A stretch of 64,000 bases of DNA from NCBI RefSeq assembly GCF_900104675.1, contig NZ_LT629944.1:248001-312000 (forward strand), in the 5' to 3' direction. Each line of letters opens with the position of its first letter. The stretch's first letter is position 1. Both the position numbers and the translations under genes were made by a program. Shown piece by piece: positions 47,949-63,998 of this stretch. Below the pieces are notes generated by a model that saw only the letters and a program-made list of their open reading frames with translations, had not been told where the DNA came from and searched no databases. The DNA comes from Angelakisella massiliensis (GTDB taxonomy: Bacteria > Bacillota > Clostridia > Oscillospirales > Ruminococcaceae).

Positions 47949-48293
47949 GGGGGCGCACTGGTTTCGACGGGGACTCTGAAGTATGGTAAGCGAGCAGAGG
48001 CGCTCGACCTCTATAAAACGGGCAACTTAAAAAGAAACGATAACAATAGTTACGCGTTTGCAGCCTAATTAGGCTGCCGTCCGGCCGATGAGGACCACGG
48101 CATCGGTTCGGGCGTCGATTAGTGGTGAACGATCATGGGGAGCGCTTCCGCCCCATGATTGTATTGGAAGCTACTGAGCCGGGCAGTCCGCCGCTCGACG
48201 GTCCGGCGAGGGAATGTAAATTTGCGGCTATGCTCGTAGAAAGCCATAGGGATGGGTTTTCGGACGCGGGTTCGATTCCCGCCGCCTCCACCA
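47949..48293 (+). ncRNA. ssrA: Transfer-messenger RNA
   Basis: A 345-nt tmRNA. The 5' end GGGGGCGCACTGGTTTCGACG pattern and the 3' end GGTTCGATTCCCGCCGCCTCC then ACCA form the tRNA-like domain (GGGGGCG pairs with CGCCTCC). The tag reading frame reads GNLKRNDNNSYAFAA then TAA. It works with SmpB to tag and release proteins from stalled ribosomes. It is intact although IME3 starts directly after it. Confidence 0.95.
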
Positions 48294-48311
48294 TAAAATC
48301 AAAACGGTATA

Positions 48312-48340
48312 GATGCCACTGGCGAAAAGCCAGTGGCATC
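48312..48340. repeat. Perfect 12-bp hairpin downstream of tmRNA
   Basis: GATGCCACTGGC (48312) and GCCAGTGGCATC (to 48340) with a 5-nt loop, no T-run. It may be the tmRNA terminator or an IME3 end sequence. Confidence 0.6.
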
Positions 48341-48388
48341 AAGGCTTAATAGTGATAAGGTACTATTTAGCTTTGCGAGGGGCAGAGA

Positions 48389-50424
<2,036 letters not shown>

Positions 50425-50441
50425 GCAGTTTCCTCCATCAA

Positions 50442-51728
50442 TTAAAGTTCCATATCCTGCGACTTGCGGTGGGAAGGTTGATCGTGCTGCCTTGTTTGCC
50501 GGGTCCGGGTTAAAATGGCGTCAAGAAAAGCCCGCACCTTTTCGGGTGCGAGCTTGACAGCGTCCAGATATGGCTGGACTTCCTTTTTCAGTTCTTGGTA
50601 CTTGTCATAAATCTTTTCGTATCGCTGTTTCCAGACAGCGGCACTCTTTTGCGCTTGTTGCAACTTATCTTCCAAACGGCTGTTTTCTGCCTTGGCAAGA
50701 ATCCCATTGACCGCATAATCCTTGAGTGTGCTGCACTCGGATGGGGTCAGAGTGATGTTGCCGGTGATCGTCTTTTTCCCCATGGAGCGGATTTCCTGTA
50801 CGGTCAGGGCGGTGGTGCGCTGTTCTTTGGTCTGCTTTTGCAGGGATTGCAGTTCCTTCTGCTTTTTCTCAACGGCAGCCTGTGCAGTGTCCAGTGCCTG
50901 CTCCGTCTGAGCGATTTGAGCGGTCACATCTTCCAGCCGCTGCTGCTCCTGTGCCACTTTGAACTGGGTCACAGTCAGATGTTCTTCGGTGCTGCCACGC
51001 TCTCCACGCTCCACATCGGTATATCCGGCAGCTTTCATATAGTTGAAGAAATCGTCTTGCAGGACACTGTATGATGTCCGCAGGACTTTCTTCCCCTTGG
51101 AGGTCAGAAGCGGATTACCCTGCTCATCCAGAGCTACCTTGGATTCCCACTTTTTACTGCGGCTGACCTGCATGATGGTCTCCTTGACTGTGCCCACAAG
51201 GGACTTGTCCTTGCACCGCTTTGACCAGAGAATCTGTTTTTCCACCACCGGGATATAGACCACGTGAAGGTGGTAGTGATACAAATTCTGCCCCAGAGCT
51301 TCCGACATGGCCCGGTTGCGTTCATCGGCGTGCATGACGGCAGAGAGGATATACTGCTCACCGCCCACGATCTCCACGGCTGCTTTGTATGCGTCGGTGT
51401 AGAACTGCTTGGCATATTCGTAGCCGCCGTGATTGTGGAAGTAAGCGGAGTTCACATCAAAAATCAGCTCCCCATATTTCACCGCATCGGCTTTCAGGCC
51501 ACGGGTGGAGATGACGCCATCGGCAATCATCTGATCGAACATAGCGGCATAGCTGTCGGTGGGAGCTTTGAAGTGAATATTCCGGTAGGTCTGGGTGGTA
51601 TCAATATCCTGGTTGGAGTAGCTGTCCTTTTCTCGTTCGTTGTGCTCCTGAACCTTCGCCACATCATCAAGGGTGGGCAAGTCCTGGTTACGGGCAAAGG
51701 TGCGGTCGATTCCGTCATTTCTGGCCAT
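50442..51728 (-). CDS. MobV (Pre/Mob) relaxase of IME3
   Basis: A 428-residue plasmid-recombination/mobilization enzyme. N-terminal HNEREKDSYSNQDIDTTQTY, the metal motif NLYHYHLHVVYIPVVEK near 150 (His-x-His-x-His form typical of MobV) and a long coiled coil at 250-330 and 350-400. It nicks oriT upstream of its own gene, where a pMV158-like site is seen. AAAGGAGCTGATTTGT precedes the ATG. Transfer needs a helper element. Confidence 0.9.
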   Translation of the reverse strand: MARNDGIDRTFARNQDLPTLDDVAKVQEHNEREKDSYSNQDIDTTQTYRNIHFKAPTDSYAAMFDQMIADGVISTRGLKADAVKYGELIFDVNSAYFHNHGGYEYAKQFYTDAYKAAVEIVGGEQYILSAVMHADERNRAMSEALGQNLYHYHLHVVYIPVVEKQILWSKRCKDKSLVGTVKETIMQVSRSKKWESKVALDEQGNPLLTSKGKKVLRTSYSVLQDDFFNYMKAAGYTDVERGERGSTEEHLTVTQFKVAQEQQRLEDVTAQIAQTEQALDTAQAAVEKKQKELQSLQKQTKEQRTTALTVQEIRSMGKKTITGNITLTPSECSTLKDYAVNGILAKAENSRLEDKLQQAQKSAAVWKQRYEKIYDKYQELKKEVQPYLDAVKLAPEKVRAFLDAILTRTRQTRQHDQPSHRKSQDMEL

Positions 51729-52079
51729 ACAAATCAGCTCCTTTCCATTGTGCGGCAGACGGCTGGGGGACGAGGATGCACTTCCTGCGGGAAGTGTAAT
51801 AACCCACTATGACACTTTTATCCCAGAGGGCTGCAAAGTGCCGTGGGCTCTCCGAGGGGGAATGCGGCATCTGCGAATGCCTTGCCGCCTTTAGAGGCTT
51901 GTGTGTGGCACCCAAATCCTCAAAAGGCGGTGTGACCGACAGCATCTCCGCAATCTCGATTGCTTCATTTCTGCCACTCACAGGCAGAGCAGATTTTGCA
52001 AATCCACTCTGCCATCCATCTCCAAATCTGCGGATTTTTCGATGGGGACGGGAGATGCGGTGGGTAAGAACGGCGGACA
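51729..52079. other. Non-coding region with MobV oriT candidate
   Basis: CACTTCC (51779) and GGAAGTG (51790) form a hairpin; AAGTGT (51792) and ACACTT (51812) form an overlapping one around TAATAACCCACTATG. On the minus strand CATAGTGGGTTATTACACTT resembles the pMV158 nick region TAGTGTG/TTATACTTT. The remaining bases to 52,079 show no gene. Confidence 0.5.
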
Positions 52080-52301
52080 TCATTTGTCCCTCCGCTTTTG
52101 CCATACGAGATCATAGCCAAGGGCATCGGCGAGCTGTACCGCCTCCACATACCGCAGAGACTCCCGCTGGAGCTTGTTGGACAGGTTGGAAACGCTGTCG
52201 CTCCAGCCGTAATCCTCAGAAAGCCGGTCAACGACTTCCTGCATCGTGTATCCGGAACGCACAATGTACGACTTGATTTCATTTCTCAAATTGGATTTCA
52301 T
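52080..52301 (-). CDS. XRE-like HTH (LLM-class) regulator
   Basis: A 73-residue protein, start MKSNLRNEIKSYIVRSGYTM, with a single helix-turn-helix (MQEVVDRLSEDYGWSDSVSN and LSNKLQRESLRYVEAVQLAD) and basic tail. It resembles the short LLM-type regulators placed upstream of mob genes. The ATG at 52301 has GAGGTGTTTTCT upstream. Likely regulates the mobilization operon. Confidence 0.75.
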   Translation of the reverse strand: MKSNLRNEIKSYIVRSGYTMQEVVDRLSEDYGWSDSVSNLSNKLQRESLRYVEAVQLADALGYDLVWQKRRDK

Positions 52302-52724
52302 AGAAAACACCTCATTCTTTCATGAAATGGTTTTACCGTGGAGCATACACGCTGCATGGTACAGTAAATCTTGATTGCTTCTTAAAAGTCACTCAGGATT
52401 GCGCCTGTGAAGAACTGTCCGAAACAGTATCCCATCGACTTTGCGATTAGGTGGGCTTACAAGCGAAATAGTGAAAATAGGCACCTTTCCGCATACTACC
52501 ATCACCATTCTGTAAATCACCGAATGATGATTTGTGCTCTGCTTATGGTAGTGTTTTTCACTGTTTGCACAACCATTGATCGGGAAGTGCGGATTTTAGA
52601 GCGCCCGCTGAGCCGAACAATAAAAAATGAACTTCGATTTTTTGCGTTCGTGCGTTCCTTCGTTCCACAGGCTGTACCCGGTCAGGAACGCATGAACGCA
52701 CGAACAGAAAGTTTTGATGTTCCG
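52302..52724. repeat. Non-coding region with nested inverted repeats (origin candidate)
   Basis: GTTCGTGCGTTC (52646-52657) and GAACGCACGAAC (52694-52705) are perfect 12-bp arms. Inside them CGTTCC and GGAACG pair as well, and GTTC repeats three times in a row on the left. The site lies just downstream of the primase-helicase operon, so a replication origin or a strong terminator is possible. No gene supported. Confidence 0.5.
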
Positions 52725-54020
52725 TTACAACTCCATAGGCGAGAGCAGAACATAAATGCCCATATATCCCCGGCACCGTTTTCCACCGCCGATGTGTAGA
52801 TTGTTGACCGGCTCCAAATGGTAGCGTTCAGCATTCTGGCTGAGCTGGTTTGCGAAGCTCTTTGGTGACAGTGGGTTTTCGGCGTTGTCCTCACACCACC
52901 GCTTATAGGCTGCATACAGATTTTTGGTGCTGGCTTCATAATCGGCCTTGAATGCCACATAACCCTCAGAATCGAGAAAGTCCAGAATGTTGTTGGCATC
53001 CCGAACTGCGGAAGTGATATTGTCCTTGGCTCTCTGGCTGATGGTGAAGTGATAGTGATTGGCGATCAGCCGCCGCAATCCCTCCAGCATCCAGAGGAAG
53101 ATTCCCTCTTTTTCGGCAATCAATTTCTCAGCAAGAAACGGGTCATCGAACCGATCCACAGGCTTATCTTTGGTGGTCAGAATGATCTGACGGCGAAAGA
53201 AACCATCGCTGCGGTCATGAAGTGCAGTCAATGCCCCGTTGCCAAAGCAGAGGAAACGCACATAAAGCAGCCCCTGATAGCTCTGTTCTCTCTTCCGTTC
53301 CAAATCCATCCGCAGTTCTGCTGTCACGATGGATTTTACATAGTTGGTCTTGGTCAAGGCATTCATGTCCAAATCATCGTCCAGCATGAGCAGCTTGCCC
53401 TCCAGGTCGGCTCTGGCAAAACGACTGTTCTCTACTTTCTGGATGGAAGTGGTATTCATGTTGAGCCCGAAAATGGCGTTCATCGCCACACCGATGCGGC
53501 TTTTGCCCTCGCCGCCCTTGCCGATCAGCATAAGCATTTTCTGTCCTTTGGTGGAGGGAATCAGGCAGTAGCCCAGATACTCCTGCAAGGCGGGAATATC
53601 CTCCGGCTCCAGCAGTTCCGAAAGGAAGCACAGCCAGTGTTCCGGTGCCGGAGCATCTGCCCGATAAGACACCGACAGACGGTTGCTGCAATACTCTTTT
53701 TTCTCTGTAAACGTGCCATCCAGAAAACAAGTGCCGTTCGCCACATGGATGCGGTCACATTGCAGGGGCAAAGGGTCTGCGTATGCCGCCAGCTTCAACG
53801 TCTTGAGCACCTGCTCCACCGTCTGTGCGACCTTGTCATGCAGCCAGGGCGAGATTTCCTCATAAATCGTTCGCTTTAATTTGCTTTCATCCGGCAGCGG
53901 TCCCTCCACAGTATAAAAGCGGTCGTTGATACAGCGCATTGGATGCCGGGACAGGAAATCCCGGCAGTATTCCGGCTCGACGATTTTCCCTTTATCATCG
54001 ATCCAAACAGGGTTGTTCAT
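52725..54020 (-). CDS. Phage/plasmid primase-type helicase (D5/SF3-like)
   Basis: A 431-residue protein. The N-terminal third resembles D5_N regions (ISPWLHDKVAQTVEQVLKTL). Walker A IGKGGEGKSR at 166-175, Walker B LLMLDDDLD near 215 and LRMDLERKREQSYQGLLYVR with FLCFGNGALTALHDRSDGFF near 250-275 fit SF3 helicases of phages and integrated elements. It would unwind the IME3 origin with the CHC2 primase, whose gene overlaps its start by 26 bp. ATP site intact. Confidence 0.85.
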   Translation of the reverse strand: MNNPVWIDDKGKIVEPEYCRDFLSRHPMRCINDRFYTVEGPLPDESKLKRTIYEEISPWLHDKVAQTVEQVLKTLKLAAYADPLPLQCDRIHVANGTCFLDGTFTEKKEYCSNRLSVSYRADAPAPEHWLCFLSELLEPEDIPALQEYLGYCLIPSTKGQKMLMLIGKGGEGKSRIGVAMNAIFGLNMNTTSIQKVENSRFARADLEGKLLMLDDDLDMNALTKTNYVKSIVTAELRMDLERKREQSYQGLLYVRFLCFGNGALTALHDRSDGFFRRQIILTTKDKPVDRFDDPFLAEKLIAEKEGIFLWMLEGLRRLIANHYHFTISQRAKDNITSAVRDANNILDFLDSEGYVAFKADYEASTKNLYAAYKRWCEDNAENPLSPKSFANQLSQNAERYHLEPVNNLHIGGGKRCRGYMGIYVLLSPMEL

Positions 54021-54609
54021 GGTATCGCTCCTCTCTCAGGCGGGCCTGTAATTTGCGGATGTACCCGTCTGCCGTTAGATTACTCACGGTTTCGCCTCGT
54101 TCATAGGAATCGCCTTGCAGCAGGATGCCCAGCTGATACTCTGCCCAGGGCAACCGGTGGCAGGCTTCCACAAACCGCTCGTCCGGCACATCTTCCGGCG
54201 CTTGCGGCGCATACCGTTTTTCCCAATCCAGGAGCAGCCGCCGATACTCGTTCAAAACAGAAAAGCACAGCCGCTCGTTCTCACGAAGCTGCTGTGCTTT
54301 GGTTTTGTGTTTCATTTTCCGGCGAATGGCTTCCGGCAAGGGCTTGTCCGGTGCAAGGTGAAAGTCCGACGCCAGTTTTCGGGCCGCATCATACAGCCGA
54401 AGGTCAAACAGTTTGGCAGTCAGGTCGATCACATCCCCGTGCTCCCCACAGGCAAAACAGTGGTAGTGGTCATCCGATACATACAGGCTCGGATGACGGT
54501 CATTATGGAACGGACACAGTGCCATACCATGGTGGTTGATGTCAATTCCATACGTCTGCGCTGCTTCCTGTGTGTTGATGCTGGCTTTCACCACTTCAAA
54601 CAAATTCAT
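53995..54609 (-). CDS. CHC2 zinc-finger DNA primase-like protein
   Basis: A 204-residue protein with the CHC2 zinc finger near 31-55 (LCPFHNDRHPSL ... YHCFACGEHGDVIDLT). No Toprim domain is present, as in the IME1 homologue at 12,793. The start MNLFEVVKASINTQEAAQTY aligns with MNVFEAVKQSVTTRQAAEHF of that homologue. Overlaps the helicase gene by 26 bp. First gene of a minus-strand operon, divergent from the DUF6076 gene. Confidence 0.83.
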   Translation of the reverse strand: MNLFEVVKASINTQEAAQTYGIDINHHGMALCPFHNDRHPSLYVSDDHYHCFACGEHGDVIDLTAKLFDLRLYDAARKLASDFHLAPDKPLPEAIRRKMKHKTKAQQLRENERLCFSVLNEYRRLLLDWEKRYAPQAPEDVPDERFVEACHRLPWAEYQLGILLQGDSYERGETVSNLTADGYIRKLQARLREERYHEQPCLDR

Positions 54610-54698
54610 ACAGATTCCCTCCATTTCCTTTTTGATGGGGCAGTTTTCTCACCCCTCTGTATAGGTTATGGGGAAAATCGAAAAAAACAGGCTAATGG

Positions 54699-54773
54699 CA
54701 TGACAAGCCGTTTTCAAAAAACATGACAAGGTCTTTGTTGTGTGCTATTATGAAAATAGAAAAACATGACAGG
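54699..54773 (+). promoter_or_regulatory. Promoter of the DUF6076 gene with three CATGACA repeats
   Basis: -35 ATGACA (54723-54728), 17-bp spacer, -10 TATTAT (54746-54751). CATGACAAG occurs at 54699 and 54722 and CATGACAGG at 54765, spaced 23 and 43 bp, so two lie on the same DNA face about two turns apart and the third four turns on. One covers the -35. A regulator binding all three is likely. Confidence 0.6.
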
Positions 54774-54782
54774 AGGGAGAAG

Positions 54783-55913
54783 ATGGATCGGATCATCAAC
54801 CATACGGTTTTATCGCTGGATTTCTGGCAGGACACCGTGACCTATGAGAGGAGTACCATGCCCACGGGAACCATTGGCTGCGAGGTGCTGAACATCCCGG
54901 ACAGTACCATTGAAGAGCTGGATACTCCCTGCAATGTGCTGAACCAGCTGCTTCAGGGGATGAACACCGGTTCCGTGGATATGGAGCTGCTGCCGCAGGT
55001 GCAGCAGGCCGCTGGCGAGATCATCTCCTTTTTACAGGCCACGCCACCGTTCTCCCGCCTGAATCGAAGCTATTTTGAGCAAAAACTTACAGCCATCTTT
55101 TCCGAAGAATACATGGAAGATGCCAAAGCCTATTTGCAGCTCACCCAGCAGGAGCAGTTGATCTGTGCTTTGACTGGTCAGCACAGCAAGGCAACAATGC
55201 TCGTCCGAATAGCGCAGGTGTTGGGGCATTTGAGCTATTCTCTGGGGCAATACAAGGAGGCCCTGACGAAATTTGCAGAGCGGTTGGATGAACCAGGCTA
55301 TGACCGTACCCCGGATGGTTATGCGGCAATGTTCGGTCAGTTCTTCAAAGGTGAGCCAACTCTGTCGCTGGATAACCCGGCCTGGATGACCCTGACCAAT
55401 GCTTCAGTGCAGTATATAGCTGCTATTCGCCCCGGAAAGACAGAGCCGCAACTGGTCAAGCGAATACACTATGTTTCTTTTGTAGGAATGTTCCGTTCCG
55501 ATCTGTTTGAGGGGCTTTGTGTGGGCCATGCGCCCAAGAAATGTCCCATCTGCGGCAGGTGGTTTCTCACCATTGACGCACGGCACACCAAATACTGCGG
55601 CGGGCTGGCCCCCGGTGACCAGCGGGGACGGACGTGCCGACAAATCGGCAATCTGAGAGGACGGGAGCAGCGGGAGCTTGCAGACGATCACCCCATTAAG
55701 GCCATTTATACCCGCCGTATGAACACCATTTTGCAAAGCACCCGTCGTGGAAAGCTGGATGAAGGAACGGCAGCAGCTATGAAAAAGCTGGCAAAAGATA
55801 AGATGCTCCGTGCGCTTTCAGATCAGCGCTATGCCAGCACTGTCTATGAGCAGGAAATGACCCAAGATGCACTGCTGAAAGCAGTACAAAAAACTAAGCA
55901 GCGAAACATCTGA
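54783..55913 (+). CDS. DUF6076-like zinc-finger protein
   Basis: A 376-residue protein. The N-terminal 250 residues are helical with no known motif. A C-terminal zinc-finger-like segment, KCPICGRWFLTIDARHTKYC near 275-294 then GRTCRQIG, is followed by a basic helix region. The Cys pattern resembles Cys-rich modules in DUF6076 proteins (recalled). AGGAGGGAGAAG precedes the ATG. It is followed 16 bp later by a sigma-like gene; the two probably act together. Confidence 0.65.
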   Translation: MDRIINHTVLSLDFWQDTVTYERSTMPTGTIGCEVLNIPDSTIEELDTPCNVLNQLLQGMNTGSVDMELLPQVQQAAGEIISFLQATPPFSRLNRSYFEQKLTAIFSEEYMEDAKAYLQLTQQEQLICALTGQHSKATMLVRIAQVLGHLSYSLGQYKEALTKFAERLDEPGYDRTPDGYAAMFGQFFKGEPTLSLDNPAWMTLTNASVQYIAAIRPGKTEPQLVKRIHYVSFVGMFRSDLFEGLCVGHAPKKCPICGRWFLTIDARHTKYCGGLAPGDQRGRTCRQIGNLRGREQRELADDHPIKAIYTRRMNTILQSTRRGKLDEGTAAAMKKLAKDKMLRALSDQRYASTVYEQEMTQDALLKAVQKTKQRNI

Positions 55914-55929
55914 AAGGTGGTGAGGGAAA

Positions 55930-57123
55930 ATGGATACAGCGTGGACATGGGAGCTGCCCGGCTATTGTGCCAAATACAGCTTCCTAACGGAACCCAAGGG
56001 CTTGACCATGCGGGAAGTGGAACGCATCTTTCAGCTTGACCCGGAACCGCCTGCCCATGAAAATCTGAATGATTATATCATTAAGGCCGTACAGAGACGA
56101 GAACAGTGCTGGTTTTCCTTTTTTCTGCACCACTATGAGAACCGGCTCAATGGCCGTGTTCGCCGTTTCCTGCTGCGGGAAGGGCTGGATCGCTATGACC
56201 CGGAACGCTTTTTGGACTATAAAATGGGCTGTGTACTTGCCATGCTGGACTGTCTCCGGGAATACGATCCCGCACAAGGGGCAGATTTCCTGACCTATGC
56301 CTACCATTTTATCGGGAACGCCCTTTTGACCTGCCGGATGCAGGAGGAGGCCGGTTCCTTTGAAAATGTGGATGAGTACAAAGCTGTGCGTGGGCTTGCT
56401 TGGCTCTACAATCAATCCGGTCAGTCTGAACAGGCGGCGATCCAGAAATATGCGCAGAAACATAACTGCTCAAGTGAAACCGCAGCGAAGTTTTTGGCAT
56501 TGGCCAAACAAAATCGAAGTCGTGTTCCGTTTTATCAGACTGTGCAGGATGAGGACAGCGAAGAAACCGGCGAGGATGTCAGCCGGGATGACCATTGGGA
56601 CTATGCGGAGATTCTATGGAACGGCATCCAGGCTGAAGCTGTCCGAGAAGCGTTTGAAAAGCTGAATTACCGGGAGCAGACACTTTGGGAAAAGAGAAAC
56701 GCCATCTGTATGACCTGTGGTAGGGTCAGTCCCATCAGCACCCGACTGACCTTTGAAGAACTGGCAGTCCTCTTTGAGGGCAGCACAGCCAGTGGTGCAG
56801 AACGGGCCTACCGCAAAGCTGTGGAACACTTGGCCTGTCTGCTGACAGAAGCCGGAGTGCTTCACATAATTCGCCTAAAACGCAAATCCCAGACCAAACG
56901 CAAAAAGAAAATCGCCGCCGCTGTCTACCTGTATCAGGTGGACAACGACGGCGAATGGGGTGAGGTTTCGTTTGATTTTGAGACCGAAACAACGGAGATC
57001 ATCCGGCTGGCGGAATGGGATACGACGGTAAGCAAGAAATTTGCAAAACAAGCAATCCGTCATCTGCAAACTTCTCCAAGGCATAATCTTCCCAAGGATT
57101 CTGTAATCATACTTGAAGCATGA
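55930..57123 (+). CDS. Sigma-70-like RNA polymerase factor
   Basis: A 397-residue protein. YENRLNGRVRRFLLREGLDR and LDCLREYDPAQGADFLTYAY followed by HFIGNALLTCRMQEE near 60-140 match sigma region 2; RYAQKHNCSSETAAK-like QKYAQKHNCSSETAAKFLAL near 180 fits region 3, and LTFEELAVLFEGSTASGAER near 275 fits region 4. The long insert near 205-240 and extended C-terminus are unusual. It may direct transcription of element genes. GAAAGGTGGTGAGGGAAA precedes the ATG. Confidence 0.7.
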   Translation: MDTAWTWELPGYCAKYSFLTEPKGLTMREVERIFQLDPEPPAHENLNDYIIKAVQRREQCWFSFFLHHYENRLNGRVRRFLLREGLDRYDPERFLDYKMGCVLAMLDCLREYDPAQGADFLTYAYHFIGNALLTCRMQEEAGSFENVDEYKAVRGLAWLYNQSGQSEQAAIQKYAQKHNCSSETAAKFLALAKQNRSRVPFYQTVQDEDSEETGEDVSRDDHWDYAEILWNGIQAEAVREAFEKLNYREQTLWEKRNAICMTCGRVSPISTRLTFEELAVLFEGSTASGAERAYRKAVEHLACLLTEAGVLHIIRLKRKSQTKRKKKIAAAVYLYQVDNDGEWGEVSFDFETETTEIIRLAEWDTTVSKKFAKQAIRHLQTSPRHNLPKDSVIILEA

Positions 57124-57170: not shown

Positions 57171-60100
57171 TTATTTGGAGATACTTACTTTTCCTTCGAT
57201 AATCTCAATTCGTTCTTGTTTTACCAACAGTTCAAAGGCTTCGTTGATTACAGAAGTAATATTTTGGGTCATTCGGTGGAAATTATACGCACGTGCAGTC
57301 TCCGCACAAAGAAGCTCCTTTGTTAGTCCAACGCTCTTGCTCAGAACCCTGTACATCGCTTCCGCCAATTCCTCGGTGGATATATGATTGATTTTTCGGC
57401 TATTAACACGAGGAGAGACTTTTGTATATCCAGCAGGGAAAAAGAAGTCTCCTTTGCGAATCAGCTTTTTACCCAGTTGTTGCAGCTGATAATCTACCTC
57501 CCTCTTTACTTTAACTGTTGCTTTTGTGTTTCCGAGCAGAGGGGCAAGGTGCTGGCAAATCAAATCATAATGGACAGGGTAAAGCCTGTTCACGATTTCC
57601 ATAATGCAATCAGCTCCGGACAGATAGCCGCTGCTGTTGCGGGAAAGATGTGCAAAAGACACCTGTTGCTCCCCTTCAAAGCCATAAGGATTTTCTATGT
57701 CTTCTATAGAGACGGCCTTTTCTTCTAAAGAAACAAAGTCCTCGGCATCGACTTCCACCTTGGAAGACACGGTTTCATCAATCCCATAGTTTTTTAGAGC
57801 ATCCTCGATGGCTTCAATCAGACGATTTCCTTCCGTAACCGGATCTTTGATCCAATCCGTGGACCAAATGCGGTAAATTTTCCACCCCATATTTTCCAAA
57901 ACATCTTGCCTCAAACGGTCACGCTCTCGGGCTGTTTTGGCAGAGTGATATGCTGCTCCGTCGCATTCTATACCGAGAACATACTGACCGCTAATTGTGG
58001 GATGTTTTACCGCCATATCTATCCGGTATCCAGAGCATCCTACTTGCGTGGCCAGCTTGTAGCCTTTGCGATCAAGGAAGTCATACACCGCTTTTTCAAA
58101 AGGTGAATCGTGCTGTACAATATCACTTTCTGTCACTTCACGCTGCAAAGAATCGATTCCATTGATAGCAAAGTCGATGTAAGAGCGCAGAAGTTTCGGT
58201 CCTTCAGCGGAAACACGATCAACATCAATGTCGGTGGGCAGAATTGATCCTACCAACTTGACGTTGTATTTCGCACGTGTTATGGCTACATTCAGTCTGC
58301 GCTCACCTCCAGATTTGCTGAGGGGGCCAAAATTCATGCGGAACACACCTGCAGCATCTTTGGCATATCCAACACTAAAAATGATGGTATCACGCTCGTC
58401 ACCCTGAACATTTTCAAGGTTTTTGATGAAGAAAGCGTCTTCCTTTTCTTCGTTGAAGAAACGCTCATACTGCTGATTTCTCAAGCGCATTTCTCGAAGC
58501 ATTGTTTCAATGGCCTGTTGCTGCACTTCACCAAACGCAATTACCCCCAGTGAACGATTGGGATGCTTTTTGAAGTGCTCAAATACCAACTCAGCAACCC
58601 GTTTTGCCTCCGGCACGTTTCCTTTTTTTCCGCCACGATCATAGAAGCCTTCTTTTACATAAAAGTACTCTACACCATTATCTGGAACCCGATCCACATT
58701 AGAAGGGAACGTGATCAGATTATTGTGATAAATTTTTGCATTCGAGAAAGCAATCAGATGTTCATGACGGCTGCGGTAATGCCACAAAAGTGTACGTTCC
58801 GGCAATAGATTCGCTTCATCCAAGATGGATTCATAAGCAGCACTGTCGTCATCCTCTTCATCGTCCGTATCGTAATCGTCTGTATCCGAAGTGGACGCAG
58901 AGAAAAAGCTTGTCGGCGGCAGCTGTTTACTGTCACCAGCAATGACTACTTGTTTGCCACGAGCAATTGCGCCGATTGCGTTTTCCGTACATACCTGGGA
59001 TGCCTCATCGAATATAACGGTATCGAATTGATAGGTATCTGCTTCCAGAAAAAGGCTAACAGACAGCGGAGACATCATCAGGCAAGGCTTTAGTACCAGC
59101 AAAAGATTCGGAATGTGACGGAATAATTTGCGGATGGGCATGATCTTTCTCTGCTTGCCGAGCTCACGTTTGAGTATTCCCACCTCGTCCATGCCGCTTG
59201 TGAATTTGTCCAGCAAAGGCAGATCGTTGATTAGTTTGCTCTTGATTCGTGCTTTTGCAATCTCAAACTGCATCCTGTCCAGTTCACAAAATTCACGAAT
59301 CGTATTTTCCTGATTCAATCGTCTGAAATTCAGGACAGCGGGATACTCCGGCAATACCGCATCCAGCCACAGGCGGAAGAATCGCTTCTGGAAGATAGGG
59401 AGAATTTGGTATGGTTTGATTTTTTGTTCTTCGATTTGCTGAACATATTCGAAAAGACCTTCTTTTTCGCAATCTTTCCTGGCATTGACAAAATCAATCC
59501 ACTCTTCCAGCAAAAACAAACCATTAGCACAGCGTTGAATACGGTTTGCCAACACTTGAAGATCCATTTGGGCATACAGCTCTGGCTCTCCAAATAGACT
59601 GAGGAACCATTGAAAGTCCTTGTCTGTTTCTCGGAGTGCATTGGCTATCGTTTCTTGATATGTGCCGCATTTCTTTATGATTTCGCCGCCAGAACAAATG
59701 CACTTGACAAACTCGTCATTGGGCTGATATTTGTCAATTTCTTTTTTGAATTCGATAGTCCAGTCAAGGGCATCTCGTATGTCTTGCCAGGATGTGGCCA
59801 TGCCTTCGTAAAAGAAACCGTACTGCTCACGGAGATCAGCTTCCTGCAGATTCAACTCCTGCATCATGGCATCCATATCGACAAGAATGGATTGCGCCTG
59901 GATAAATGCGGTGTATGTTGTTAAAAGTGCATCTACCAGCTTAAAATCTGTGTTTTCATATTCAAATACGGCATCAAATACGAATATGAAGTGGGGGCAT
60001 ACAACATTACACTTTTCTCTTTCGGCGTCTAACTGTCTCAACGCAAGCAACACCTTTATTACAGCGTGTTCGGAAAGCTCTTCGGTGTCATTTTTGTAGT

Positions 60101-63074
60101 ATGGTTGGAATACAGTTACCTCGTTTCGGATTTTCTGGCGAAAATCTGCAGTTTTTTGCAGTGCAAGCAGAACGAGTTCCCAGGAAGTATCAATTCCTTT
60201 ATACCAGACGCCGTATTTTTCTGCCAGTTCGCTGTCTGCCGGATCAAAATCCTGTACAATTTCCATCATATCTGACACAAGGCGAATTGCTTCCAGAAGA
60301 TTGGCATATGTGTCCAGCACCATGCTGATGTTTTGAAAATCGGTATCTTCATATTGGAAGCTATCCCCAAATGCCTCCATCAAATTCTTGCATTCACATC
60401 CCATGTCCTCTCGGGTTTGCCCAATATCCTGTAATGTTGTCAATGCAGCAATGATGGTTTTGTCATCGATTTTCTGGGAAACGTTTCTGTACAAAAGTTT
60501 CATTTGTCGCTGATCTGCATAGTAGCTGCCCCTCACATATTTCAAAATAGAGGTATACTGCAACTTATATCGAACCAGCATTTCCTGATAATTGACACCC
60601 AAAACTTCCTTTTCAAAATTCTGAAGCAAGTCAGATTGCATGGAATGAATTTTGTTCGCTTTCTGCTGTGCGCCTAAGAGTTCCTTTCTGCAAGCTTCAA
60701 TCAGCTTTCCTGTGTCAATCGCCGACATTGCACTGTTCCCGGCAATAATTGCGTGCAATTTTTGCAGCTCTGCTTCCAGTGCTTCAAAAGTAACCAACTG
60801 ATCAGCATTTGACGTCAACTGTTCCTCAGTAGCGGAAATTACACCATACAGCTTCTTGAGCTCTGCCGCTTTCTGCTGGAAGGTTTCCTTTCTTTGTTCA
60901 TATGTTTGAGCATCACTGCTTAACTGGATTAGGTTTTCTGCTTGAATCCATTGCTCAGGGAGTAGATCATCTGGTCGGGAAACAACGCTGATACCCGGAT
61001 AATAATTTTCTTGGAGAGCGTTTGTCAGAGAGCTATAGGCTTCGTGGTAACGAGATAAAACAACCTTATAATCAATCTCAAAGATGCCCTCGGCAAAGTC
61101 CTGAGAAATTTGTCCTTTTATTGCATTGATTGTCCATGCTTGTCCTTCAGCTATTTGACGTTCATTTTGAATGAGCGCCAAATTTTCACCCTGCTGCTGC
61201 ATCCGTAAAAGTTCCGGAACACCCTCTGCACATTTGGAAAGTATCTCTTTGGCACCGCAGATTTTTTCCACACTGTCCAAATCGGCAAAAGTGTGAGGTT
61301 CCAGTTCGCAGATTCCCTGTCCATTGATTACTGCATACTGGGATTGCAGTTCAGCAAGTTTTCTGGCAAAGCCCGATGTTTTTTCTTCATATACCGAAAT
61401 TCCGTTAAATAACGATATAACATTAGGTTCTGATATCCAACTATAAGGAATACCGGGAGATTTTTTGGCAACTGCCAGCAAATCTATTCCTTTTTTCAGA
61501 TTTTCATAAGAACGCTCAAAAGTCAAATATACTGAGGCAAAAATATCGTTTGCTTGAGAAGCGCACCTGCTAAGACTGCTGGCAAGTGCGGGAAATCGTG
61601 CGCTTACATCATGCCGCAGCTCATTTGTGACAACCGGTACAATCGATCCACGCCAAGGATTACCATCAAAGTCTTCCGACATTTTCCCGATTGTGTTCTT
61701 AAAAGCGTTGAGCACATATAAATACCGACGATACTGTTCAGCAGAAGTGCTACGGATATCTGGTATACTAAATATAACATCTGGGTAATCATCAAGTTCG
61801 GCAAGCGTTCCATTGACTTGATAGATTGTCATATTGAGCGGACTAACTGTTTCAAAAATCTGTTCCGCATACTGGTTCAGCTTTTCTTTATCTTGGTACA
61901 GCGTCTCCAGTTTCATATATGCTTCATCGCTCAGCTGCGCTTTGTTGCGAGCAAGGCTCAGTGCTTTTCGCAACTGCTCAAGTACAGCTTTTTTATTTGC
62001 TTTATGACTATGCAGAACCAAACAAAAATCATCCAATCCGGCTGAGGTCAACCGCTTGTGTACGACATCCAGTGCGGCCATCTTTTCGGATACAAACAGC
62101 ACCTTTTTCCCATCAGCTAAGCATTCTGCAATAATATTGGTGATTGTCTGACTTTTACCTGTTCCGGGAGGTCCCTGCAAAACAAAGCTAACACCTTTTT
62201 TCGCACACAGAATTGCCTCTTGCTGGCTGGAATCTGCGTCCACTACCTGAAACACATCAACGGGCTTTAGCTTTTTGTCAAAGTCATAGTCATTGAGCTC
62301 TTCCGGGATGTGTTGTGCTGCAGAAGTATCTCCTGCGATTGTACGCACGATAGGATTGGAAACAACATTTTCCTTGTTTCTGGCCAAATCTCTGTACATA
62401 TTGATTTTCAAGAAAGAGAACAGGCTGAGTCCAACTTCAGGCGTTACCGTCCAGTTGTTGTTTTTTACCGCTTTCTGAACTGCATTCAGATAGTTTTGTA
62501 ACCCGAGATCTTCATCAAATTCTGGGAAGGTCAATCCGAAATCGTTCTCCATCTTGTACTTTAATGCCGGATTTACCACAATTTCATCATCGGTCATTTG
62601 CAACACAAACGGAGAGGAAATGGACTCTACAGTCAGACTGACAGGGACAAGCAAAAGCGGTGATACGATTTGCTCGGTACTATAATCAGCTTCAGTCCAT
62701 TTCAAAAAGCCAAAGGCCAAGTACAGGATATTTATGCCCTGTTCTTCTATCGCCATTTTCGCTTTATTTCGGAGATTTCTCAGAGTTCGCTGCAACTCTT
62801 TTACGTTCTGATTAGTTGTTACATCAGAAGATGTAAGGAAACCGTTGTCAATATCATATTCCACGTCCGTTTCTTCTTGGGGTTCACGATAATATGGGAA
62901 TTCCAATGGATTGTCATTCTCCACAAAACTCTCCCAAAGCTCAAAAATTTCGGGAGTCTTGATAGATAGCGTAGACCGCTTCGTTTCACGATAATTGATA
63001 AGACGATTCCGCTTTCCTAAATCAAGTAATTTGTTCTTCCAAATTTCGACTTTTTGATCTATCCCTGCCGGCAT
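57171..63074 (-). CDS. DUF4011-SF1 helicase-nuclease-DUF3320 protein (Hhe-type defence candidate)
   Basis: A 1,967-residue protein. Order: DUF4011 N-terminal region (IWKNKLLDLGKRNRLINYRE near 15), Walker A QGPPGTGKS near 300, a long central helical region, helicase Walker B FDEASQVC near 1355 with GDSKQLPP, a Vsr/PD-(D/E)xK nuclease-like segment (YRIDMAVKHP, LGIECDGAAYHS near 1680) and a DUF3320 C-terminus. The single-gene architecture matches the Hhe-type anti-phage systems (recalled). The second ATG (63074) is preferred since GGAGG touches the first. Co-operonic with the upstream HTH gene. Confidence 0.85.
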   Translation of the reverse strand: MPAGIDQKVEIWKNKLLDLGKRNRLINYRETKRSTLSIKTPEIFELWESFVENDNPLEFPYYREPQEETDVEYDIDNGFLTSSDVTTNQNVKELQRTLRNLRNKAKMAIEEQGINILYLAFGFLKWTEADYSTEQIVSPLLLVPVSLTVESISSPFVLQMTDDEIVVNPALKYKMENDFGLTFPEFDEDLGLQNYLNAVQKAVKNNNWTVTPEVGLSLFSFLKINMYRDLARNKENVVSNPIVRTIAGDTSAAQHIPEELNDYDFDKKLKPVDVFQVVDADSSQQEAILCAKKGVSFVLQGPPGTGKSQTITNIIAECLADGKKVLFVSEKMAALDVVHKRLTSAGLDDFCLVLHSHKANKKAVLEQLRKALSLARNKAQLSDEAYMKLETLYQDKEKLNQYAEQIFETVSPLNMTIYQVNGTLAELDDYPDVIFSIPDIRSTSAEQYRRYLYVLNAFKNTIGKMSEDFDGNPWRGSIVPVVTNELRHDVSARFPALASSLSRCASQANDIFASVYLTFERSYENLKKGIDLLAVAKKSPGIPYSWISEPNVISLFNGISVYEEKTSGFARKLAELQSQYAVINGQGICELEPHTFADLDSVEKICGAKEILSKCAEGVPELLRMQQQGENLALIQNERQIAEGQAWTINAIKGQISQDFAEGIFEIDYKVVLSRYHEAYSSLTNALQENYYPGISVVSRPDDLLPEQWIQAENLIQLSSDAQTYEQRKETFQQKAAELKKLYGVISATEEQLTSNADQLVTFEALEAELQKLHAIIAGNSAMSAIDTGKLIEACRKELLGAQQKANKIHSMQSDLLQNFEKEVLGVNYQEMLVRYKLQYTSILKYVRGSYYADQRQMKLLYRNVSQKIDDKTIIAALTTLQDIGQTREDMGCECKNLMEAFGDSFQYEDTDFQNISMVLDTYANLLEAIRLVSDMMEIVQDFDPADSELAEKYGVWYKGIDTSWELVLLALQKTADFRQKIRNEVTVFQPYYKNDTEELSEHAVIKVLLALRQLDAEREKCNVVCPHFIFVFDAVFEYENTDFKLVDALLTTYTAFIQAQSILVDMDAMMQELNLQEADLREQYGFFYEGMATSWQDIRDALDWTIEFKKEIDKYQPNDEFVKCICSGGEIIKKCGTYQETIANALRETDKDFQWFLSLFGEPELYAQMDLQVLANRIQRCANGLFLLEEWIDFVNARKDCEKEGLFEYVQQIEEQKIKPYQILPIFQKRFFRLWLDAVLPEYPAVLNFRRLNQENTIREFCELDRMQFEIAKARIKSKLINDLPLLDKFTSGMDEVGILKRELGKQRKIMPIRKLFRHIPNLLLVLKPCLMMSPLSVSLFLEADTYQFDTVIFDEASQVCTENAIGAIARGKQVVIAGDSKQLPPTSFFSASTSDTDDYDTDDEEDDDSAAYESILDEANLLPERTLLWHYRSRHEHLIAFSNAKIYHNNLITFPSNVDRVPDNGVEYFYVKEGFYDRGGKKGNVPEAKRVAELVFEHFKKHPNRSLGVIAFGEVQQQAIETMLREMRLRNQQYERFFNEEKEDAFFIKNLENVQGDERDTIIFSVGYAKDAAGVFRMNFGPLSKSGGERRLNVAITRAKYNVKLVGSILPTDIDVDRVSAEGPKLLRSYIDFAINGIDSLQREVTESDIVQHDSPFEKAVYDFLDRKGYKLATQVGCSGYRIDMAVKHPTISGQYVLGIECDGAAYHSAKTARERDRLRQDVLENMGWKIYRIWSTDWIKDPVTEGNRLIEAIEDALKNYGIDETVSSKVEVDAEDFVSLEEKAVSIEDIENPYGFEGEQQVSFAHLSRNSSGYLSGADCIMEIVNRLYPVHYDLICQHLAPLLGNTKATVKVKREVDYQLQQLGKKLIRKGDFFFPAGYTKVSPRVNSRKINHISTEELAEAMYRVLSKSVGLTKELLCAETARAYNFHRMTQNITSVINEAFELLVKQERIEIIEGKVSISK

Positions 63075-63096
63075 CGTAGCCATCCTCCATTTTCTG

Positions 63097-63324
63097 TTAT
63101 TCCAGATTTGCTCCCGCCTCTTTGCTGGGGGTTATTTCCATAATATCGCCTATATCGCAGCCAAGCGCCGTGCAAATTTTAACCAAAGATTCGGTGGAAA
63201 CATTTTCATTTCTGCCTAACTTAGCGATCAATGCCGGACTGACACCAGACAGGCGCTGCAAGTCCTTTTTCTTCATGTCACGATCAATAAGCAACTTCCA
63301 AAGCTTTTTATAACTAACTGACAT
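63097..63324 (-). CDS. Small XRE/Cro-family HTH regulator of the defence operon
   Basis: A 75-residue helix-turn-helix protein, start MSVSYKKLWKLLIDRDMKKK with LQRLSGVSPALIAKLGRNEN as the recognition region. It lies 22 bp upstream of the defence helicase gene on the same strand and shares its promoter, so it probably controls the operon. It is similar in size and layout to HTH genes at 5607 and 20,277. Starts at 63324 (GGTGT upstream, weak site). Confidence 0.8.
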   Translation of the reverse strand: MSVSYKKLWKLLIDRDMKKKDLQRLSGVSPALIAKLGRNENVSTESLVKICTALGCDIGDIMEITPSKEAGANLE

Positions 63325-63362
63325 AATTGAGACACCATCCATGTAGAATAAACGCATTCAAT

Positions 63363-63391
63363 ATTATAACAAGAAAATTCTGTAACAGCAA
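63363..63391 (-). promoter_or_regulatory. Promoter of the HTH-defence operon
   Basis: Minus strand: -35 TTGCTG (63391-63386), 17-bp spacer, -10 TATAAT (63368-63363). The start lies about 30 bp before the HTH ATG. The rest of 63,392-63,530 shows no gene. Confidence 0.75.
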
Positions 63392-63530: not shown

Positions 63531-63998
63531 TTACCTGAAATCATTATGTGGTAAGGCTGTTACCTGGATTAACCCCTTGCCCTCTCTCTTCCTTGCATAT
63601 TCGAGAAGATCTTTTGCATTGCTGGCGGGATGCCACGCATAGGCAATGAGGAAATCGGTATGATCGACCACATACCGATTTGCCCGAACAATGGCAACCT
63701 TGCGGGGTACACTTTCCATGCCTGGAGGATAATAAGTGCTGTCAAACCCATCTGGTACAGGAATAGGGCGCTCTGCTGGATGGTAAGGTAACAATAGGGT
63801 CAGTTCGACTTCTGGATGGTTTTGTTTTGCGGTTTTTACGGCTTTTGCCGCAAGACCGTCAAAACATCCATAACGACCAACAATAAATTCAGTAACACCG
63901 TAGCGGATTATATGCGTCTCAACAGCGGCGTAAAGTGATGGATAAATTTCTTCCGATGCTTCTCTATGTCCAATAAAGAAACAACTCTTCCTGCTCAT
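63531..63998 (-). CDS. SLOG-fold protein (DUF1273-like)
   Basis: A 155-residue protein starting MSRKSCFFIGHREASEEIYP. The FIGHRE start and the glycine-containing FIVGRYGCFDGLAAKAVKTA near 38-57 fit the SLOG nucleotide-binding fold, with VRANRYVVDHTDFLIAYAWH near 100-120. It is a relative of the SLOG gene at 5026. It lies about 170 bp upstream of the defence promoter, same strand. Sensor or effector roles are known for SLOG proteins elsewhere; the role here is inferred only from context. Confidence 0.72.
   Translation of the reverse strand: MSRKSCFFIGHREASEEIYPSLYAAVETHIIRYGVTEFIVGRYGCFDGLAAKAVKTAKQNHPEVELTLLLPYHPAERPIPVPDGFDSTYYPPGMESVPRKVAIVRANRYVVDHTDFLIAYAWHPASNAKDLLEYARKREGKGLIQVTALPHNDFR

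Follow-up and report, generated by a model that had tools for sequence, protein, structure and literature searches.

Close to the right edge of the 64,000-nucleotide stretch of Angelakisella massiliensis DNA analysed here (the window), a single gene for a giant helicase-nuclease lies directly behind a small HTH regulator gene, and the question this arrangement raises is whether the two form a phage-defence cassette carried by a mobile element and, if so, what the regulator does. The reading that we favour, and which we think probable from homology and gene arrangement, is that of an autorepressor-controlled, non-modifying DNA-targeting defence cassette, exchangeable and borne on an integrative mobilizable element.

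The helicase ORF (57171-63083, minus strand) is uninterrupted and encodes 1970 amino acids; an SD sequence, GGAGG, lies 9 nt 5' of its fourth codon, and because of this spacing M4 (63074) is the likelier start. Pfam finds DUF4011 (1.1e-43, from residue 18), AAA_11/AAA_12 and REase_MTES_1575 (4.1e-39), and the order of DUF4011, helicase motifs I-VI and MTES_1575 nuclease is the layout of the DUF4011-SF1 helicase-Vsr superfamily (PDC-S37). Alignment shows intact Walker A and B motifs, helicase motifs III-VI and D/E/H nuclease residues: motif I reads GPPGTGKS at 304 and motif II FDEASQ at 1358, motifs III, IV, V and VI are present, and the nuclease residues fall in YRID, IECDG..YH and GWKIYRIWSTDW. 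Both sets of motifs are conserved across the window protein and eleven aligned homologues, with minor substitutions chiefly in two divergent ones. The SF1 helicase is split, its middle region between motifs I and II being long and variable in length, and the window protein carries about 290 additional residues there (587-759 and 926-1056) that most of its close relatives, at about 1675 aa, do not have. The preliminary description of this locus had given the protein a DUF3320 domain as well; that domain has no Pfam match here, whereas the remaining domains and the intact motifs stand. Residues 1640-1970, when modelled (mean pLDDT 68), form a nuclease fold and behind it two winged helices, which the predicted secondary structure of the model places in the C-terminal DUF3320 region; winged helices have been described as overlapping DUF3320 (Anantharaman 2013, PMC3710099). 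Against the PDB, with weak E-values, the same model matches I-Bth0305I in its Vsr-like catalytic domain (TM 0.64-0.79 on the target) and also SelB in its winged helices.

Compared with existing models, this single-gene defence candidate does not represent a new family. The helicase scores 1324.6 bits against the NCBIfam model for anti-phage protein ProA (NF058533), below its curated cut-off of 1500, and 917 bits against NCBIfam Hhe (NF042953), far below the cut-off of 2000; the PADLOC Hhe model gives 656 bits, and the best PADLOC match is PDC-S37, a phage-defence candidate, at 1447 bits. Full-length clade relatives (L044, L045 and L051) begin at ProA profile position 356/357 and span to 1903, so this clade lacks the first ~355 residues of ProA; the window protein, too, opens with DUF4011. 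Judged by its sequence, then, the protein is a shorter variant of a kind already named anti-phage (ProA, Hhe), and not a new defence system. Matches to the DUF4011 helicase occur in 113 of 391 genomes of the class, many of them covering the helicase part only. A search of viral contigs found no helicase relative, while two phage records matched the helicase, MT836269 substantially (32% identity over 60%) and the other weakly. Some more distant DUF4011 homologues adjoin housekeeping genes, and in P. aeruginosa a DUF4011 gene is core and flanks a defence hotspot (PMC10250203), so not every DUF4011 member need be a defence gene. Two longer-clade homologues (L126 and L128) follow, by eye, a dnaE-like gene in both genomes, and this longer clade is possibly a chromosomal, vertically kept branch. 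Elsewhere, also by eye, AbiE-type toxin-antitoxin-like genes lie 5' of the DUF4011 gene at L051 and L123, and genes for JAB-domain and ThiF-like proteins lie upstream of it at L119, which by the same visual judgement is a possible CBASS-like island.

The helicase, HTH and SLOG genes all sit inside one mobile element of about 16.5 kb, running from about 48341 to 64869 (L003:869), its right end some 870 bp beyond the window. Near-identical copies define its limits: those in Oscillibacter valericigenes An907 and Clostridium polynesiense MS1 are 96.6-99% identical and all end at the same points, the element being 96.6% identical to L060+L061 over 48339 to 64887 and having the same ends in L043/L062. 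The ends are imperfect inverted repeats (GGCTTAAyAGTGATAAGGwACTA), and no 13-bp direct repeat was found at them. From left to right the backbone encodes a large serine recombinase with Resolvase, Recombinase, Zn ribbon and DUF4368 domains (48407-50164, minus strand; Pfam), a Mob_Pre (MobV-type) relaxase (50442-51728, minus; Pfam 1.9e-31, with the MobV model below its cut-off), a P4-type primase/helicase C-terminal protein (52725-54020, minus; TIGR01613, above cut-off), a DnaG-type CHC2 zinc-finger primase (53995-54624, minus; Pfam 1.7e-15), a DUF6076 protein (54723-55913, plus; Pfam 1.2e-56) and, closing the backbone ahead of the cargo slot, a sigma-factor-like protein (55930-57123, plus) with weak FliA/sigma-70 matches below cut-offs. 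No conjugation genes were recognised in 48341-64869. With its integrase, relaxase and defined ends, the element reads as an integrative mobilizable element, and it appears to have been transferred recently between distant hosts. In the C. polynesiense copy (L043:5564-11475) the helicase gene is broken in two, giving one ORF of 1049 aa and one of 942 aa, either as a pseudogene or through a sequencing error. To the right of the element, L003:945-9206 holds ArdA (Pfam) together with relaxase-like and VirD4/TraG coupling protein-like genes (by eye), so that another conjugative element, recognised partly by eye, seems to abut it there; and two relaxase matches of identical score elsewhere in the assembly (G000:C2:43893-45047 and G000:C5:440-1594, one at a contig end) are either a repeat or an assembly duplicate.

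On the chromosomal left flank lies tmRNA (ssrA; 47949-48293, plus strand; Rfam RF00023, 170.8 bits), which the preliminary description had correctly placed beside the element, whose left end is at 48341. The element splits the stem-loop terminator that follows tmRNA, leaving its left arm at 48294-48340; a genome of the same genus (L063) has the same terminator, unbroken, behind a tRNA. The Oscillibacter copy follows a tRNA and lies in a hairpin that likewise resembles a terminator. We considered tmRNA as a specific target and rejected it, since one of the other copies follows a tRNA and the second sits at an unrelated site. The insertions lie within or next to rho-independent terminator hairpins; two of the three follow tmRNA or a tRNA, and the flanks are different each time, a pattern that points to terminator targeting and not to a fixed attachment gene.

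What the element carries in its cargo slot differs between copies of the backbone within this one genome. A sister element at about 833.7-857 kb of contig C5 (G000:C5:833700-857000; L139, L113) has a backbone 93% identical over 50318-57035, and homology stops at 57035. In the sister the slot holds an HTH_26 gene (834206-834442), then an HKD-Snf2 helicase (412 bits) and three more genes, and further on Type III R-M genes for a methylase (689 bits) and, after a HEPN gene, a restriction subunit (946 bits). Because the sister carries this HTH_26-HKD-Snf2/Type III R-M set in the same place, the slot holds exchangeable defence operons, each led by a like HTH, and because the sister integrase differs, exchange between elements is modular. 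Family membership, the swap with Type III R-M and recent transfer together make it well supported that the helicase is defence cargo on a mobilizable element, as had been proposed for it.

The regulator (63097-63357, minus strand) had been noted as an HTH gene beside the helicase, and it is indeed HTH_26 (Pfam 4e-20), ending 13 bp upstream of the helicase ORF, a gap so short that the two genes are very likely co-transcribed. Its homologues begin at the twelfth codon, M12, which makes 63324 the likely start. The operon had been credited with a strong promoter, of which one half is borne out: a perfect extended -10 element (TGTTATAAT; TG-T-TATAAT, 63371-63363, minus strand) lies 5' of the HTH gene and a similar element precedes its relatives, but there is no good -35 and a consensus promoter scan did not list the site. 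The regulator matches VanUG (PDB 3tyr, 7.3e-21) with 62% identity over 66 aa, counted from the alignment, and scores 88.5 bits against the VanUG equivalog NF000090, below the curated cut-off of 150. VanUG binds and represses its own promoter, as footprinting has established (PMC4405338). The HTH is not, on the other hand, a conserved partner of the helicase family: upstream genes vary at 27 other helicase loci (one of them with only 260 bp of upstream sequence), none has this HTH, and an adjacent HTH, of a different type, is present at L048 only.

Seen from the side of the regulator, the association with defence is much broader. Relatives of the HTH are present in 209 of the 391 genomes. At 17 non-redundant loci forming a first sample (63-75% identity), the next gene matches PADLOC defence models in 14, among them Type I, II and III methylases, DrmD-like helicases, HKD-Snf2, a PDC-S05 protein, a Type II restriction enzyme and, at a distance of 450 bp, BrxC. 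In the second sample, at 43-67% identity, the count was 16 of 20 loci, so that an R-M or other defence gene comes next in 30 of the pooled 37. For a control HTH, an RstR-like gene (L003:106-420), two of ten next genes matched PADLOC, one of them UvrA and a false match. The difference (30/37 against 2/10; Fisher p = 0.0006) has to be read with the breadth of the PADLOC models, with the shared ancestry of the HTH loci and with a possible bias in the ten control genes, which were hand-picked from 27 as clear protein-coding after the sequence starts had been seen. The E-value limits for PADLOC were 1e-5 for the first sample and the control and 1e-8 for the second sample, whose loci were hand-picked across the identity range before the next genes had been seen, except G397 (L207), where the downstream helicase was already visible from an earlier search. 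We consider the association strong but not final, drawn as it is from sampled loci and not from a full survey. On this sequence evidence the HTH comes from a VanUG-like family whose members lead many defence operons of unrelated kinds in Clostridia, and this is the newer part of the finding. Three genes directly after the HTH have no PADLOC match (L153:1784-3199; L163:820-1467, minus strand; L210:352-2919) and are candidates for unknown defence or restriction genes.

The promoters of these relatives suggest a common operator. Across 35 non-redundant promoters a palindrome, TTTGCGwwCGCAAA, scores 76.3 against 23-43 in 20 shuffled sets, in a single run at one width with a palindromic model, for a motif first noticed by eye in promoters of shared ancestry, and with 15 starts and 25 iterations for the shuffled sets against 30 and 40 for the real one, which somewhat favours the latter; an earlier non-palindromic motif search had recovered the extended -10 itself. 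In many of these promoters the palindrome starts 34-40 bp (about 37) 5' of the extended -10, a near-fixed spacing that gives a derived position of about -56 to -43 and falls within the span of the VanUG footprint (PMC4405338). In the window's own HTH promoter the match to the palindrome is not significant (p = 0.41) and no inverted repeats of at least 7 bp were found; two short dyads seen there by eye, ATTTTCCGAAAAT and CTGTTACAG, were set aside as within chance by a rough estimate. The window HTH has the recognition helix SPALIAK, most relatives SSATITK or STASMAK, and because of this difference it may use another site. The earlier idea of the HTH as an expression switch thus gains support from the likeness to VanUG and the leading position in defence operons, but not as a trait of the helicase family, and not from any operator recognised at this promoter.

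The cassette most likely works as follows. The VanUG-like HTH would be made first and would repress its own promoter, with the downstream helicase-nuclease kept low and self-limiting. Because no methylase is associated with it, the helicase-nuclease probably reads the state of the invading DNA and not missing methylation, and that state might be ends, single-stranded regions or replication intermediates. The protein would translocate with its split UPF1-like SF1 motor, and its Vsr-type domain would cut DNA, guided by the two C-terminal winged helices. Protection, the self/non-self rule, repression and the trigger are all inferred from homology.

The same cassette could be wired differently, with the HTH acting as a C-protein-type activator or timer that delays expression after transfer to a new host. 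Most HTH relatives do head R-M operons, where a delay is useful, Mollicutes are known to have C proteins in Type I and II systems (PMC5282649), and the position of the upstream palindrome would also suit an activator; yet VanUG, the closest characterised homologue, is a repressor, and a cassette without a methylase would gain less from a delay, so we hold this to be rather unlikely. The HTH might instead be a stray regulator that travels with the element and leaves the helicase uncontrolled, as its absence from the 27 other DUF4011 loci and the lack of a recognised operator in the window's promoter would allow. We find that improbable given the 13-bp gap, the promoter shared with the helicase, and the leading place of the same HTH family both in the sister element's defence operon and at 30 of the 37 sampled loci.

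Repression of a defence nuclease, our preferred reading, also has to be set against a role of the helicase-nuclease in element maintenance or DNA repair, by competitor exclusion or end processing. Such a role is unlikely in our view, since the gene occupies a slot exchanged with Type III R-M, travels on a mobile element and has its best matches among proteins named anti-phage, even though Vsr and SF1 domains occur in repair too, some DUF4011 homologues adjoin dnaE-like and other housekeeping genes (by eye), and DUF4011 is core in P. aeruginosa (PMC10250203). A further question is whether the defence system extends to the neighbouring gene (63531-63998, minus strand), which had been called a SLOG gene and which, despite having no Pfam match, yields a model that matches YpsA/DUF1273 (E 1.5e-6), LOG, MoCo carrier protein, DprA and the ThsA SLOG domain, and is thus predicted to have a SLOG Rossmannoid fold. 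It might be a nucleotide sensor or signal producer for the system: it adjoins the HTH-helicase operon on the same strand in all three element copies (L042, L043 for the other two), and SLOG domains sense nucleotides in Thoeris, as the ThsA match recalls. We regard this as very unlikely, because a gap of ~206 bp containing the operon's own promoter separates it from the HTH start and none was seen at the other DUF4011 helicase loci examined.

Beyond this locus, we tentatively entertain a wider possibility, which we rate as somewhat doubtful: that one VanUG-like repressor family with a single common operator serves mechanistically unrelated defence systems in Clostridia as a general, transferable control module. 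Interchangeable repressors would then keep the cassettes low and might cross-regulate them. If one repressor family and operator did preside over R-M, DISARM-like, HKD-Snf2 and DUF4011 defences, the silencing and switching of traded immune genes would become testable from one promoter motif, and the genes that follow this HTH would offer a sequence-based route to unknown defence genes.

How does the cassette compare with systems already described? ProA has the same core as the window protein, beginning with DUF4011 and taking in the helicase and Vsr domains, and differs in the N-terminal ~355 residues of its profile, which the helicase clade lacks; Hhe has the same DUF4011, helicase and Vsr nuclease, although the window protein scores far below its cut-off; and with PDC-S37, the best PADLOC match, the difference lies in the ~290 middle residues by which the window protein exceeds its close relatives. 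The MTES_1575-type giant proteins (PMC3710099) likewise combine an SF1 helicase, a Vsr-family nuclease and wHTH with no methylase, but Pfam finds no HEPN or transglutaminase domain in the window protein. On the regulatory side, VanUG of E. faecalis (PMC4405338), besides its close identity to the HTH, is also the first gene of its operon, and is an autorepressor; it controls vancomycin resistance, whereas the window HTH heads a helicase-nuclease gene, and the recognition helices differ (GVSKSTFAK in VanUG against GVSPALIAK). C proteins/HsdC, BrxR/CapW and RptR (PMC5282649, PMC12255303) are, like the HTH, small regulators ahead of defence genes, but BrxR/CapW are WYL proteins where this family is HTH_26, and RptR has another fold and is mainly tied to Type I R-M, unlike the present family with its varied defence genes.
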